In this document: positions 1 through 6,019 of the stretch, in pieces | How positions within the stretch are numbered: position 1 is the first letter of the stretch | Layout of the letters: each line of letters begins with the position of its first letter | Assembly: GCA_007117515.1 (NCBI GenBank) | Contig: SKGQ01000143.1 | Coordinates: 1 to 40,218 of the forward strand | Source of the DNA: Ectothiorhodospiraceae bacterium | Lineage (GTDB): Bacteria > Pseudomonadota > Gammaproteobacteria > Nitrococcales > Aquisalimonadaceae | Reading direction: 5' to 3' | DNA length: 40,218 nt | The notes under the pieces: model-generated | Seen by the model: the letters and a program-made list of their open reading frames with translations, nothing else | What the model was told of the DNA's origin: nothing | Databases searched by the model: none | Position numbers and translations under genes: made by a program

Positions 1-962
1 CCATTGGCCAGTGGACCGTAAACGATGTAGCTGTGCCCCGTGACCCAGCCGACATCGGCCGTGCACCAGTACACTTCGCCATCCTTGTAATCGAACACGT
101 AGTGATGGGTCATGCTGGCGCCCAGCAGATAACCGCCCGTGGTATGCAGTACACCCTTGGGCTTGCCGGTGGAGCCGGAGGTGTAAAGGATGAACAGCGG
201 ATCCTCCGCGTCCATTTCTTCCGGCGGGCAGTCGGCGGAAACGGCAGCCACTGCCTCGTGGTACCAGACGTCGCGCTTGTCGTCCCACTCCACCTTGCCA
301 CCGGTGCGCTGAACCACGAATACGGTCTTGACGTTGGGGCACTCTTCCAGCGCCACGTCGGCGTTGGCCTTGAGCGGGAAGTAGCGGCCACCGCGGGCGC
401 TCTCGTCGGCGGTAATCAGCACCTGACAGTCGGAGTTGATCATCCGGTCCTGCAGCGCCTGCGGCGAGAAGCCGCCAAAGACAATGGAATGGATCGCGCC
501 GATCCGGGCGCAGGCCAGCATGGCTACCGCCGCTTCGGGGATCATCGGCAGATAGATGCAGACGCGGTCTCCCTTCTTGACGCCGCGCTCCTTCAGTGCG
601 TTGGCGAAGCGGCTGACTCGCTCGTGCAGATCGCGGTAGGTGATGTGCTGTGCTTCGGTGGTTTTCGGATCATCCGGTTCCCAGATGATGGCGGTGCGGT
701 CACCGTGGGTCTCCAGATGCCGATCGACACAGTTGTCGGCGACGTTGAGCTTGCCGCCTTCGAACCAGCTGATCCTTCCCTCTGTTAGATCGGAGTTGTC
801 GACCTTGTCCCAGCGCTTCATCCAGCGCAGGCGCTCGGCCTGTTCGGCCCAGAAATTATCCTTGTCGTCTATGGACCGGCGATACATCTCCTCGTAGCCG
901 GCCCGATCAATATGGGCCGCTTTGGCAACTGCCTCCGGAACCGGATAGGTCTTCTCTGCCAT
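1..962 (-). CDS. acs: Acetyl-CoA synthetase, N-terminal half (runs off the window)
   Basis: AMP-forming acetate:CoA ligase, which activates acetate to acetyl-CoA through acetyl-AMP in the cytoplasm. About 320 residues are visible, roughly half the usual length of about 650; the 3' end lies beyond base 1. The N-terminus reads [20 protein letters not shown], and the adenylate-forming P-loop signature [11 protein letters not shown] begins near residue 260, as expected for Acs. The ORF track misses it because it has no stop inside the window. The ATG at 962 follows AGGAGG (972-977) with 9 nt spacing, a very strong ribosome site. It lies downstream of cbrB on the same strand, behind a sigma-54-type promoter and a structured leader, so control by the adjacent two-component system is likely but inferred. 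Identity is secure; only regulation is uncertain. Confidence 0.96.
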
Positions 963-982
963 GATGTCTTTCCTCCTCTCTG

Positions 983-1197
983 AAAAAGGTAAGGTCGCCG
1001 GATTACCAACAACGGTAGCGCCTCGCCGAAATCGTTATCGTATTCCGCGCCTGATGGCGCTTGCTGCTAGCCTAGCAGGCCGGCTTGCTGCCAGCGCGGT
1101 GGCGGCAATCTTTTCTTGCCGTGTTCTTGCTCCCCAGCCTTTCAGGCTCATCCGATACAGCCCGTGATCGTGCCCCGGCAGGCGCCAGATCACGGGC
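983..1197 (-). ncRNA. Candidate sigma-54-driven structured RNA: CrcZ-like sRNA or acs leader
   Basis: If the -24/-12 promoter at 1209-1222 is real, its start point falls at about 1197. The RNA would then open with a perfect 10-bp stem, GCCCGTGATC (1160-1169) against GATCACGGGC (1188-1197). Further perfect hairpins lie at 1132-1144 (AGCCT/AGGCT), 1064-1078 (CTGCTAG/CTAGCAG) and 1047-1060 (GCGCC/GGCGC). Between them are A-rich ARN triplets of the kind bound by the Hfq distal face: AGCAAGAAC at 1123-1131 and AAGAAAAGA at 1109-1117. It ends with GGTAA/TTACC (1007-988) followed by five U (987-983), a weak terminator just before the acs ribosome site. Position and promoter type match CrcZ, which follows cbrB in Pseudomonas; primary similarity is not claimed. 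It could equally be only the acs 5' leader. Confidence 0.4.
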
Positions 1198-1208
1198 CGC
1201 AGCAGAAA

Positions 1209-1222
1209 GCAATCCCCATGCC
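1209..1222 (-). promoter_or_regulatory. Sigma-54 (-24/-12) promoter upstream of acs
   Basis: The minus strand reads ACGGCATGGGGATTGCT. This has GG and GC separated by exactly 10 nt and matches the consensus YTGGCACGNNNNTTGCW at the key positions (GGCA, G, TTGCT). It lies between cbrB, which encodes a GAFTGA-type sigma-54 activator, and acs, in the correct orientation. The predicted start is at about 1197, leaving a 235-nt untranslated region before the acs ATG. The promoter is predicted from sequence only. Confidence 0.65.
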
Positions 1223-1273
1223 GTAAAGAACAAAGTCTTTGTCGGTCCGGGGCTTGCGTCAAGCTGCCCGAAC

Positions 1274-1314
1274 GTGAACCGGGTCACAGACGATACAATG
1301 TTACGGATGGTGAC
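1274..1314. promoter_or_regulatory. Possible upstream activator sites for CbrB
   Basis: Two imperfect dyads lie about 75 to 120 bp upstream of the predicted sigma-54 start, the usual distance for enhancer-binding proteins. They are GTGAACCGGGTCAC (1274-1287) and GTTAC-N5-GTGAC (1300-1314). A third copy of the half-site, GGTTCAC (reverse of GTGAACC), is at 1353-1359, over the cbrB stop codon. I infer binding by CbrB from position and from the GTTAC-type half-site. Confidence 0.4.
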
Positions 1315-1355
1315 GCCAAACATGGTGCAGTGGATGGATCGGCACCGTGTGCGGT

Positions 1356-2705
1356 TCACGGTCGTTGTTGTCTGCGGCGAGCCCGCGGGATGCCGAGTCG
1401 CTGCCTTTTCTCCCATAGTGCCTTGCGGCTGATGCCGAGTCGGCGGGCCAACTCGGTCTCCGTCAGCACGTCTTCGTGCTCGCGCACGTATTGGCAAAAA
1501 TAATCCTCCAGTGACAGATCGGGTGTGCCTCCCGGCCGCTGGTAGCCCTGGGGTCGGTCACTCATGCCCAGCAGGTCCGGTGTCAGCACCGTGCTGTCAC
1601 TCAGGATAACGGCCCGTTCGATGGCATTCTCCAGTTCACGCACGTTGCCTGGCCAGCTGTATGTGCGAATTGCCTCCAGCGCATCGTTTGAAAAGCGCAT
1701 TGGTGGCTGGTTCAGGCGCTTGCAGCCGCGCTCGAGAAGAAAACGGGCCAGATCCACCACGTCTTCGCCGCGTTCGCGCAGCGGCGGCAGACGGATTTCC
1801 ATGACATTGATCCGGAAGTAAAGATCCTCACGAAATTCGCCGCTCTGTGACAGTCGGGCCAGGTCCCTGTGCGTTGCCGCCACCAGGCGGACGTCCACCT
1901 GGCGGGAGGCTGCCGATCCGACGCGACGAATTTCGCCTTCCTGCAGCACCCGCAGCAGGCGGGCCTGGGCCGCCGGTGGCAGCTCACCGATTTCATCCAG
2001 AAACAGCGTGCCGCCATTGGCTGCCTCGACCAGCCCCTGACGCACACCGACGGCGCCGGTAAAGGCGCCTTTCTCGTGACCGAACAGTTCTGCCTCGATC
2101 AGGGATTCCGGAATTGCGGCACAGTTGACCGCAATCAGCGGCGCGTCGGCCCGCCGACTGTTGGCGTGCAGGGCGCGCGCGACCAGTTCCTTGCCGGTGC
2201 CGGATTCACCGAGGATCAAAACCGTGGTATCCGTCGGCGCGACCTTGCCGATGCGTTCGAACACCTCCTGCATGGGGATGCAGTTGCCGACAATCCCCGC
2301 AACCGGGTAGCTGCGCTCGATATCCGCCTGCAGGGCCGCATTCTGCCGTTCCAGGCGGTTTTCCTTCAGCGCCCGCTCGACCGTCAGCAGCAGCTCGTCG
2401 TTGTCGAATGGCTTCGCCACGTAATCCACCGCGCCCTGTTTCATCGCCTCCACCGCCGAGCGGACGCTGGCGTAGCTGGTCATGATGATGCTGGGCACCT
2501 CAGGTGCCAGCTGCAGAACGTCGGTACCGGGTCTCCCGGGCAGACGCAGGTCAGCAATGATCAGATCGAATCCGTCCAGGTTCCAACGTGATTCAGCATC
2601 CTCCACCGACGCAGAATCGCTGACCTGGTGCTGTTGGCGCTCCAGCAGGCGGCGCAGCGATCGACGGATGATTTCCTCGTCCTCGATCAGCAGAATCCTT
2701 GCCAT
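1356..2705 (-). CDS. cbrB: CbrB, NtrC-family sigma-54-dependent response regulator
   Basis: Response regulator of 449 residues that activates RNA polymerase with sigma-54. The receiver domain (about 1-120) has the acidic pocket E8/D9, phospho-acceptor D52 in IIADLRLPG, T76 and K98. The AAA+ domain (about 135-365) has Walker A GESGTGKE (166-173), the sigma-54 contact loop GAFTGA (213-218) and Walker B GTLFLDEIG (232-240). A Fis-type helix-turn-helix closes the protein, with LTETELARRLGISRKALWEK and a basic end. The DLSLEDYF segment before the helix-turn-helix and the overall layout are typical of CbrB of pseudomonads, which sets carbon and nitrogen preference. It starts 4 bp after the cbrA stop, so both come from one mRNA. 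Its likely target promoter lies just downstream at 1209-1222. It is slightly shorter than Pseudomonas CbrB because the receiver-AAA linker is shorter. Confidence 0.92.
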   Translation of the reverse strand: MARILLIEDEEIIRRSLRRLLERQQHQVSDSASVEDAESRWNLDGFDLIIADLRLPGRPGTDVLQLAPEVPSIIMTSYASVRSAVEAMKQGAVDYVAKPFDNDELLLTVERALKENRLERQNAALQADIERSYPVAGIVGNCIPMQEVFERIGKVAPTDTTVLILGESGTGKELVARALHANSRRADAPLIAVNCAAIPESLIEAELFGHEKGAFTGAVGVRQGLVEAANGGTLFLDEIGELPPAAQARLLRVLQEGEIRRVGSAASRQVDVRLVAATHRDLARLSQSGEFREDLYFRINVMEIRLPPLRERGEDVVDLARFLLERGCKRLNQPPMRFSNDALEAIRTYSWPGNVRELENAIERAVILSDSTVLTPDLLGMSDRPQGYQRPGGTPDLSLEDYFCQYVREHEDVLTETELARRLGISRKALWEKRQRLGIPRARRRQQRP

Positions 2706-2709
2706 GGTG

Positions 2710-5652
2710 TCAGGCCTCCTCGGTTTGCTGCGCGGACGCCGTGTTCAGCGTCAAGGTCACGGCCGTGCCAGCGGCGTCGCTGTCTATATCCAGCGCGCCA
2801 CCGCAATCGCGAATGATGTTGTACACCAGTGGCAGACCGAGGCCGGTTCCCTGGCCCGGCTGCTTGGTGGTGTAAAAGGGTTCCAGCACGCGGGCGATGG
2901 AGTGTTTCTCGATGCCGCAGCCATTGTCGCGCACCCGAATAAGCACTTGCCGCTCCAGGATCCGGGCGGTAACCCTGACCCGACCGTCAGCGCGATCGTG
3001 GCAGGCGTCGGCCGCATTGGTGAACAGATTGACGAACACCTGCACCAGCGGCTGAGACTTCGCCTCTACCTGCAGGTCCACCGGCACGCGGTTATCGAAG
3101 CGCAGATTGCGCGCGCGTCTACTGAGCATCGTCAATCGTGTGGCCTCCGCCACCGTCTCATGCAGATTGACGGCTTCCAGTGAACCTGCCGAAAGCGGGC
3201 TGCCACCGTGCGCGTAGCGCACCAGGCTCTGGACGATGTTATTGATGCGTTGCGCCTGATGCAGGATATCGTCCGCACAGTCCTGGACCTTTGCCGGGTC
3301 GGGCTCGTCGCGCAACTCCTGGGCCAGACAGGTGATGCCGGTAACCGGGTTGCCGATCTCATGGGCTACGCCGGCCGCCAGCCGACCGATCGATGCCAGC
3401 CGCTCACTGTGTGCAAGCTCCTTCTCCAGTACCTGCAGGTCGGTGAAATCCTCGATCAGCAACACCGTATCGCCGCTGCGATCACGTCCGGGTTCCTCGA
3501 TGCTGGCCTTATGCAGGCTGTACCAGCGCGTCTGGCCGGATTCCTGGACTTGCTGCCGGTGCCAATGGGTTTCGCTGTCGTTCAGGAATTCGCTGAGCAG
3601 GTTGCCCCAGGGCGGTGGCAGTTCGTCAAGACGCCGGCCGATGACATCGGACAAGGCGATTCCGGTCAGCTTTGCAATGGCCGGATTCCAGCGCACCAGA
3701 CGGTTGCCATGGGCCAGCGCGCAGACACCGACCGGGAGGTCCTCGATGATCTGCCGGTGATAGCGGCGCAGGCGGTCGAGTTCCGCGGCCAGTCCGCGCA
3801 GGCGCGTGCGGGAGGTTTCCAGCCGATCCTCGATCAGGCGAACGTTCTGGGCTCGGGTCGCCGGGTCCTCCTGTTCCAGTTCCAGTCGGTGGTCGACAAT
3901 CATCCGCGCCAGCACCGGTCCCATCATTCCCGACAGATTGCGCTGGATGCGGATCCGCAGATCATGCAGCGCGCCGGGCCGGTCCTCCTTCCAGTCCATG
4001 GCCAGATCCCGTAGAGCCCGTTCCACCTCGGCCGAGGCGGTATTGCGACCCATGACCGAGGCCAGGCGCTCGACGAACTGGGCCGGCGATGCGGCGCGCA
4101 GATCACCGGCGGGAAAGGAGGGGGTGAGTTCCCGGCAGGTCGAGGCAGTATCCCGCTCCGCATCGTTCTGGCGGCCGAGGAGGGAAACCAGCACGAACAG
4201 GATTGCGTTGATGCTCAGCGACCAGAAGGTGGCCGACTGGTACATCTCCGGCGAACCGACGGCGGCCTCCGAGGTCAGGCTGAACCAGCTCAGTACGCTG
4301 TGACCGGTCAATGGTGGCAGCAGCGCGGTCAGCACCCAGACCGTGGCGCCGGCCACCAGACCGGCGATGAAGCCGTTGGCGGTGGCGCGGGGCCAGAACA
4401 GCAGGCCGAGAATACCGGGCAGGAGCTGGGCCATGGCGAGAAATGAGATCAGTCCCCAACCCACCAGGCCGGTGCCGACCTCCATGAGCAGATAGAAGAT
4501 GTAGCCAGCAGTGATGACCGCGACGATCAGGGCCCGCCGGGTCCAACGCAGGGCGCCGTAAAGATCGTGCCGTGGCTGCACGCCGGCAAGGGGCAGCAGC
4601 AGGTGATTCATCGCCATGGAGGAAATGGCCAGGGTCGACACCACGATCATGGCACTGGCCGCCGAGATTCCGCCCAGGTAGGCGATGATGGCCAGGGTCG
4701 GCGAGCCGCTGGCCAGGCTCAGGCCGAGTACATGGTAGTCGGGAGAGGTTTCTGGTTGCAGCACCTGAGCCGACCAGAGAATCGGCGGGATCACCAGGGT
4801 CAGCGCCAGCATGTAGAGCGGGAAAGCCCAGCTCGCCGTGTACAGATGCCTCGAGCGGATGTTCTCGGTGAACAGCATATGGAATTGCCGGGGCAGCAGA
4901 AAACCGGCGGCAAAGGCCAGAACCAGAAAACTGGGCCAGGCTCCTCCCTGCGCCGGACCATACAGGTCCTCGATCAGTTGCGGGTTCTCCGCCAGATGTT
5001 GCTGCAGGCCGGCAGGACCACCGAAGGCCTGGTAGATGGCGACGCCGGCCACGAGCATGAGGGCAAACAGCTTCATCACCGATTCGAAGGCGATTGCCAC
5101 CACCATGCCCTCGTGTTTCTCGCGCGGCGTGACGTGACGGGCGCCGAAGATAATCGCGAACAAACTGACGATAAGGACGAACCAGAGGGCCAGCACCTGG
5201 GGTGAGGAATCCTGACTCAAAACCACCGTGGATTCGGTCACCGCGCGGATCTGCAAGGCGATGTAGGGCAGAACGCCGGCCAGCATGAGCAGGGTGACCA
5301 GGACGCCCACCGGCTGACTGTTGAAGCGGAAGGCGAACAGGTCGGCGACCGAGGATAGCTGGTAGGTACGCGTCAGGCGCAGGATCGGCATGAGCAGGAC
5401 CGGCGTCAGCACGAACGCAAGGGTTACCCCCAGGTAGATCGTGAGGAACAGCAGCCCCTGCTGTTCGGCAAAACCGACACTGCCGTAATAGCTCCATGAA
5501 GTTGCGTAGACACCCAGGGACAGGACGTAGACTGCGGGATGCCGGACCAGCTTGCCTGGCAGCCAGCGTTTCTCCGCAGCATGGGCAATCAGGAACAGCA
5601 GCAGCAGGTACAGGATCGCGCTGATCGACAGCGTTGTCAGATCAATTTGCAT
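2710..5652 (-). CDS. cbrA: CbrA, transporter-fused sensor histidine kinase
   Basis: Membrane sensor kinase of 980 residues. Residues 1 to about 500 form a sodium:solute symporter (SLC5-type) module with many hydrophobic helices, starting LSISAILYLLLLFLIAHA. Next come a linker/STAC-like region and coiled coil (about 505-625), a PAS domain (about 628-735, IEDLPVGVCALAHGNRLVRW), the phospho-acceptor H764 in GVAHEIGNPVTGI, and an ATPase domain with NLFTNAADAC, DNGCGI, FYTTK and GTGLGL. Length and order match CbrA. The cognate regulator cbrB follows after 4 bp. The start codon lies inside the end of the small upstream gene (11-bp overlap) without a good ribosome site of its own, which suggests coupled translation. 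The signal it senses is unknown. In Vibrio, the related CrbS transporter-kinase system controls acs, which makes acetate or another carbon signal plausible here. Confidence 0.9.
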   Translation of the reverse strand: MQIDLTTLSISAILYLLLLFLIAHAAEKRWLPGKLVRHPAVYVLSLGVYATSWSYYGSVGFAEQQGLLFLTIYLGVTLAFVLTPVLLMPILRLTRTYQLSSVADLFAFRFNSQPVGVLVTLLMLAGVLPYIALQIRAVTESTVVLSQDSSPQVLALWFVLIVSLFAIIFGARHVTPREKHEGMVVAIAFESVMKLFALMLVAGVAIYQAFGGPAGLQQHLAENPQLIEDLYGPAQGGAWPSFLVLAFAAGFLLPRQFHMLFTENIRSRHLYTASWAFPLYMLALTLVIPPILWSAQVLQPETSPDYHVLGLSLASGSPTLAIIAYLGGISAASAMIVVSTLAISSMAMNHLLLPLAGVQPRHDLYGALRWTRRALIVAVITAGYIFYLLMEVGTGLVGWGLISFLAMAQLLPGILGLLFWPRATANGFIAGLVAGATVWVLTALLPPLTGHSVLSWFSLTSEAAVGSPEMYQSATFWSLSINAILFVLVSLLGRQNDAERDTASTCRELTPSFPAGDLRAASPAQFVERLASVMGRNTASAEVERALRDLAMDWKEDRPGALHDLRIRIQRNLSGMMGPVLARMIVDHRLELEQEDPATRAQNVRLIEDRLETSRTRLRGLAAELDRLRRYHRQIIEDLPVGVCALAHGNRLVRWNPAIAKLTGIALSDVIGRRLDELPPPWGNLLSEFLNDSETHWHRQQVQESGQTRWYSLHKASIEEPGRDRSGDTVLLIEDFTDLQVLEKELAHSERLASIGRLAAGVAHEIGNPVTGITCLAQELRDEPDPAKVQDCADDILHQAQRINNIVQSLVRYAHGGSPLSAGSLEAVNLHETVAEATRLTMLSRRARNLRFDNRVPVDLQVEAKSQPLVQVFVNLFTNAADACHDRADGRVRVTARILERQVLIRVRDNGCGIEKHSIARVLEPFYTTKQPGQGTGLGLPLVYNIIRDCGGALDIDSDAAGTAVTLTLNTASAQQTEEA

Positions 5653-5839
5653 GGCGTCGTGCCCGCCCGGCGAGCCAGGCGGACAGACCGATGATCAGCA
5701 GCCATAGCAGGTAGACCACGTACCAGGGGGCGGGCAGTTGCATCCACCAGCCGGCGAACGGGGACGCCAGCAGGAACAGCGAGAACAGGAAAAGCAGCAC
5801 GCTGGCCGCTCCCGGCCCTTGCTCAGTGGGCTGCGCCAT
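5642..5839 (-). CDS. cbrX: Small membrane protein coupled to cbrA (CbrX-like)
   Basis: A 65-residue protein starting MAQPTEQGPGAASVLLFLF. It has two hydrophobic segments (about 13-33 and 36-58) and a basic end, GRARRHAN. The start chosen here is the ATG at 5839, preceded by GGAAGGAG at good spacing; the longer ORF-track start at 5884 lacks this. Its stop overlaps the cbrA start by 11 bp, so translation of the two is probably coupled. In Pseudomonas a small membrane-protein gene called cbrX precedes and overlaps cbrA in the same way. The assignment here rests on position and topology, since such short proteins show little sequence signal. It may be a partner or assembly factor of the CbrA transporter module, or only a translational leader. 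Confidence 0.75.
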   Translation of the reverse strand: MAQPTEQGPGAASVLLFLFSLFLLASPFAGWWMQLPAPWYVVYLLWLLIIGLSAWLAGRARRHAN

Positions 5840-6019
5840 CGGTATTCGCTCCTTCCAAGGCGACCTAAGGAAACACTGCTCCATTCCCGCGTCTGCGCCC
5901 GGGACCGGTTTTGGTCATTTGGCAAGGCGCGGTGCCGTGTTTCCTGAATCGTTCGATGCGTGTTTCCGCATCTTGATTGTTTGTTACTAAAGGTAGCATC
6001 CGTGGCCGTTTCTGGCCAG

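Follow-up and report, generated by a model that had tools for sequence, protein, structure and literature searches.

A predicted CbrB/sigma-54 promoter at the crcZ position that probably serves acs

The two-component system CbrAB is known mainly for making CrcZ-type RNAs and, to our knowledge, reviews treat it as unique to the Pseudomonadaceae. In the window (the whole stretch of DNA analysed here, 40,218 nucleotides), cbrA and cbrB are followed on the minus strand by a 393-nt intergenic region and acs, and a candidate sigma-54 promoter lies at the position of crcZ. The question raised by this locus is what that promoter makes: a shorter CrcZ-like RNA or an acs leader with a conditional terminator, both proposed in a sequence-only reading, or simply the acs mRNA. 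The genes, from a genome (G000) of 2.4 Mb in 210 contigs with an estimated completeness of 97%, are the following.

1-962, minus strand: acs, acetate-CoA ligase, running off the window edge (ACAS_N and AMP-binding domains; best NCBIfam match acetate-CoA ligase)
1356-2705, minus strand: cbrB, NtrC-type response regulator with GAFTGA (domain and motif)
2710-5652, minus strand: cbrA, sensor kinase (~46.7% identity to Pseudomonas CbrA over residues 1-969)

The cbrB product shares 55-60% identity with CbrB of Pseudomonas, Halomonas, and Gilvimarinus records. It retains the GAFTGA motif and the genome encodes rpoN, as engagement of sigma-54 requires; hfq is also present. Orthologues of CbrB with 65-95% identity are found in 40 of the 54 genomes of the order, this one counted. 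The cbrA-cbrB-acs order is kept across the genomes examined, with acs next after cbrB in nearly all flanks covered. Judged by eye, a DUF294-like reading frame rather than acs follows cbrB in one locus (L022). Only 55 nt separate cbrB from acs in the two loci read from genus g9, which has small genomes. Given that CbrAB has been called unique to the Pseudomonadaceae, a cbrAB-acs module elsewhere is new. A 65-codon frame that overlaps the start of cbrA (5642-5839, minus strand) resembles, by eye, cbrX, a small frame reported before cbrA of P. putida.

The candidate control elements are a promoter and two dyads.

1208-1223, minus strand: sigma-54 promoter CGGCATGGGGATTGCT, with GG at 1222-1221 and GC at 1210-1209 (p 0.036 in the intergenic region against shuffles; equivalent in relatives)
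1299-1315, minus strand: predicted CbrB dyad CGTCACCATCCGTAACA, consensus TGTTAC-N5-GTAACA, 10 of 12 bases (p 0.007 against intergenic shuffles)
5982-5998, minus strand: second CbrB-type dyad TGCTACCTTTAGTAACA, upstream of cbrA (equivalents before cbrA in G002, G004, and G010)

The GG-N10-GC element that had been read at 1209-1222 was recovered within CGGCATGGGGATTGCT (1223-1208, minus strand), with a predicted +1 at 1197. The first consensus position of the site is a C, which counts against its being a promoter of acs. Sites matching TGGCAY-N6-TGC with one mismatch occur at chance level in the 40-kb window (32 found, 33.9 expected), and the promoter is therefore credible only through comparison with relatives: through equivalents at the same place, through the CbrB-type dyad 92 bp upstream, and through a second pairing of dyad and sigma-54 site before an operon described below. 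In the cbrB-acs interval, 11 of 14 family genomes have a sigma-54 site, clear in ten (L002, L003, L007, L009-L012, and L014-L016) and weak in one (L013). Other families contribute L008, L017, L019, L020, and L027, with L018 borderline. No such site was found between cbrB and acs in L004, L005, L006, or family f5, L004 and L005 being two of the four genomes of the genus itself. The promoter is thus not essential for acs, and its importance is not universal; in the close relatives without the site, it would have been lost or never have been present. The proposal of a sigma-54 promoter under CbrB control at the crcZ position is borne out to the extent that conservation and the predicted dyad support it.

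The half-sites of the dyad consensus match the TGTTAC/GTAACA subsites mapped for P. putida CbrB (PMC6296734), and their spacing is N5 rather than the N12-14 of the crcZ promoters of Pseudomonas and Azotobacter (PMC8871633). Two dyads with at most two mismatches are present in the 40-kb window, where 0.14 are expected, and both flank cbrAB; genome-wide, three are found at one mismatch compared to one for a reversed control pattern. In relatives, the dyad is likewise upstream of the sigma-54 site, at a distance of 68-111 bp, and matches at least 10 of 12 bases in most. Helical phasing of these distances (p 0.005; 0.024 without near-duplicates) is suggestive only, the period being one of five tried. 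Several places in this genome beside or around dyad matches (window 5865-5990, L133 200-330, and L141) share a short sequence that ends in GGGAANNNANCAGTGTTTCC, possibly a small repeat element.

The genome-wide dyad search also led to an operon that begins with a gene for a cNMP-binding/CBS/DUF294 protein, followed by a gene for a 91-residue membrane protein, which is DUF4212-like by size and context and matches no model, and also encodes a VC_2705-family sodium/solute symporter. In this genome, a sigma-54 promoter, TGGCACGCCAACTGCA, lies 54 bp before the DUF294 gene, with dyads at -122 and -142. A near-consensus sigma-54 promoter is located 51-61 bp before the operon start in six genomes (G000, G001, G002, G004, G010, and G012), and in each a dyad precedes that promoter by 67-70 bp. 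This arrangement, in our view, supports the motif pair independently, and the same CbrB very probably drives this operon as well, as judged from the motifs. Similar clusters have been linked to acetate.

Downstream of the promoter, the region that would be transcribed contains the following elements.

963-1197, minus strand: predicted leader of ~235 nt between the sigma-54 start and the acs start codon (without CA motif or Rfam match)
1197-1188/1169-1160, minus strand: perfect 10-bp stem with an 18-nt loop, beginning at the predicted +1 (-26.4 kcal/mol)
1069-1077, minus strand: TGCTAGGCT, candidate acs promoter for sigma-70, resembling an extended -10 (conservation)
983-1007, minus strand: hairpin and U5, judged not to be a terminator (-3.1 kcal/mol, z -0.27)
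972-976, minus strand: GGAGG, Shine-Dalgarno sequence of acs (sequence)

Our main reading, to which we give a probability of roughly 0.7, is that the site at 1208-1223 acts as a CbrB-dependent sigma-54 promoter and would mainly produce acs mRNA with the ~235-nt leader. CbrA would sense carbon status, and phosphorylated CbrB would bind the dyad at 1315-1299 and, across the intervening 92 bp, contact the sigma-54 polymerase at 1223-1208. Transcription is predicted to begin near 1197 and would read into acs; in the window, the stretch from the promoter to acs has no terminator, which counts for acs as the target. The downstream TGCTAGGCT may be a proximal sigma-70 promoter that provides a second acs start. 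It is invariant in the four genomes of the genus, occurs once in the 40-kb window, and recurs 70-195 nt before acs in most of the family's cbrB-acs intergenic regions. No -35 element was recognised for it, and the second start accordingly stays a suggestion.

Control of acs by a two-component system has a precedent in CrbS/CrbR (MxtR/ErdR) of Pseudomonas and Vibrio, which likewise combines an SLC5-type sensor with acs and other acetate-use targets; CrbR, which is of the LuxR type, works via the ACTU motif and a predicted RpoD promoter (PMC5715377, PMC5436829), whereas the present locus pairs an NtrC-type regulator with sigma-54. The ErdR/CrbR model (NF041830, E 1e-40) found no match in this genome or in 23 of the 25 other genomes of the order searched; the Pseudomonas genome scored over the cut-off, and matches below it are recorded for the two Halomonadaceae and for G016 and G017. 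CbrAB would thus take the acetate-control role of CrbS/CrbR, with no CrcZ output at the locus. A parallel in promoter design is provided by CbrB/sigma-54 promoters of P. putida protein genes such as PP2810-PP2813 (PMC6296734), where CbrB sites and a sigma-54 promoter also precede a protein-coding operon and over 100 bp likewise separate the promoter from the start codon. Here, in contrast, the target is acs, adjoining cbrAB, and the host is not a member of the Pseudomonadaceae. In this second lineage, the same regulator and promoter design would face acs, in genomes that gave no match to the usual activator of that gene. This arrangement suggests that carbon-use control by CbrAB can act directly on acetate genes, and makes the cbrAB-acs lineage a natural comparison for gain or loss of the CrcZ/Hfq branch.

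Two other readings are both unlikely, and to a similar degree. According to the first, sigma-54 transcripts often stop before acs, yielding a short structured RNA without CA motifs or an attenuating leader. Folding beats that of shuffles (z -2.39, the value for the 215-nt region, which folds somewhat better than its shuffles, and -3.73), and the perfect stem at +1 (1160-1197) holds up as had been described, dinucleotide shuffling of the intergenic region yielding a stem of at least 10 bp in 1.5% of cases (p ~0.015). Two loci contain terminator-like structures between promoter and acs, a strong one in L027 (-22.7 kcal/mol, T6) and a long-loop one in L017, so that a terminated RNA is possible in those loci. 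Against this reading, most sister leaders have no terminator between promoter and acs, and a three-sequence consensus has an unfavourable covariation term. The stem sequence is not shared with relatives; L003 has a different stem at +1, and these 5' stems may simply protect the 5' end. The hairpin at 983-1007, previously proposed as a terminator, folds about as well as shuffled sequence does, and neither near relative (G002, G001) has its 5' arm. Of the two products proposed in the sequence-only reading, the acs leader is the better one, but without its conditional terminator, the candidate for which is weak and not conserved. A Shine-Dalgarno-sequestering hairpin was also rejected: the U-run at 987-983 pairs weakly with the acs GGAGG (-4.8 kcal/mol, z -0.66) and without covariation. 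The extension of this reading to the whole order, in which the crcZ position would encode a CbrB/sigma-54-driven structured RNA without CA motifs, either an sRNA or an attenuating acs leader, is slightly less likely again; if true, a different riboregulator would replace CrcZ, with the terminated versions in L027 and L017 as its clearest forms.

The second reading treats the sigma-54 site as a relic or a chance match, with the proximal TGCTAGGCT promoter driving acs. It would fit the chance-level frequency of the motif in the window and the genomes without a sigma-54 site that keep both acs beside cbrB and TGCTAGGCT, but most family members have the site at a shared position together with a CbrB dyad, GAFTGA and rpoN are intact, and the genome contains a second site of the same design.

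Family f5, which lacks the sigma-54 site, retains TGTTAC-N37/38-GTAACA (L021, L023, L024, L026, L028, and L029). The second half-site overlaps the -35 region belonging to a promoter-like acs element, TATCCT/TATGCT, where CbrB may act on a sigma-70 promoter.

That the locus produces a CrcZ-like decoy, a short CbrB/sigma-54-driven RNA that would lift carbon repression by titrating Hfq (and Crc) with its A-rich motifs, is very improbable, and we reject it. The locus resembles CrcZ (RF01675) of Pseudomonas and Azotobacter in its place directly downstream of cbrB and in a predicted sigma-54 promoter with TGTTAC/GTAACA upstream, both conserved, and hfq is present; here, however, acs lies directly downstream, and the region has no CA motifs, no Rfam match, no credible terminator of its own, no conserved 5' stem, and no recognisable Crc to partner Hfq. 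The CA motif, AAnAAnAA, binds Hfq/Crc and was counted in the same way in all RNAs at this position. It occurs zero times in the window leader and zero or one time in sister leaders of the order, as opposed to six in Pseudomonas, five in Serpens, seven in Litchfieldella, five in Halomonas, 14 in each of the two from Gilvimarinus, and seven in a Cellvibrionaceae MAG; the counts of these seven comparison RNAs exceed every shuffle. The ARN stretches to which the sequence-only reading had pointed are not enriched (longest run three triplets, p 0.48) and include no AAnAAnAA. An Rfam scan of the window gave no match at gathering and no CrcZ even at E up to 10, whereas CrcZ scores above gathering in L032 and L037 and, below gathering, with an E of 0.0007 over the full model length in Litchfieldella (L035). 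The genome, estimated to be 97% complete, has no recognisable Crc; its sole Crc-like protein is an intact exonuclease III, scoring 340 bits to exonuclease and 229 to Crc, with CGDWN kept where Crc has CGSLY and the catalytic residues retained.

CA-rich RNAs with 5-14 motifs do follow cbrB in Litchfieldella, Halomonas, Gilvimarinus, and the Cellvibrionaceae MAG (L035 6600-7200, L039, L034, L036, and L038), where they come after a CbrB-type site and a TGGCA(C/T) sigma-54 promoter. No description of them was found in the literature searched, and they are likely CrcZ counterparts outside the Pseudomonadaceae. In L035, AACAACAA is located within hairpin loops. A strict CA-rich pattern had no match in the whole genome of the window, and the same pattern also misses the Halomonadaceae. 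A relaxed pattern, which recovers the Halomonadaceae, matched one place in this genome, rejected as crcZ because an open frame starts directly after it and no sigma-54 site is nearby. This CA-rich stretch (L161, G000:C60:35429-35453) lies shortly before a 498-codon open frame, where Hfq would block translation, and possibly marks an Hfq target.
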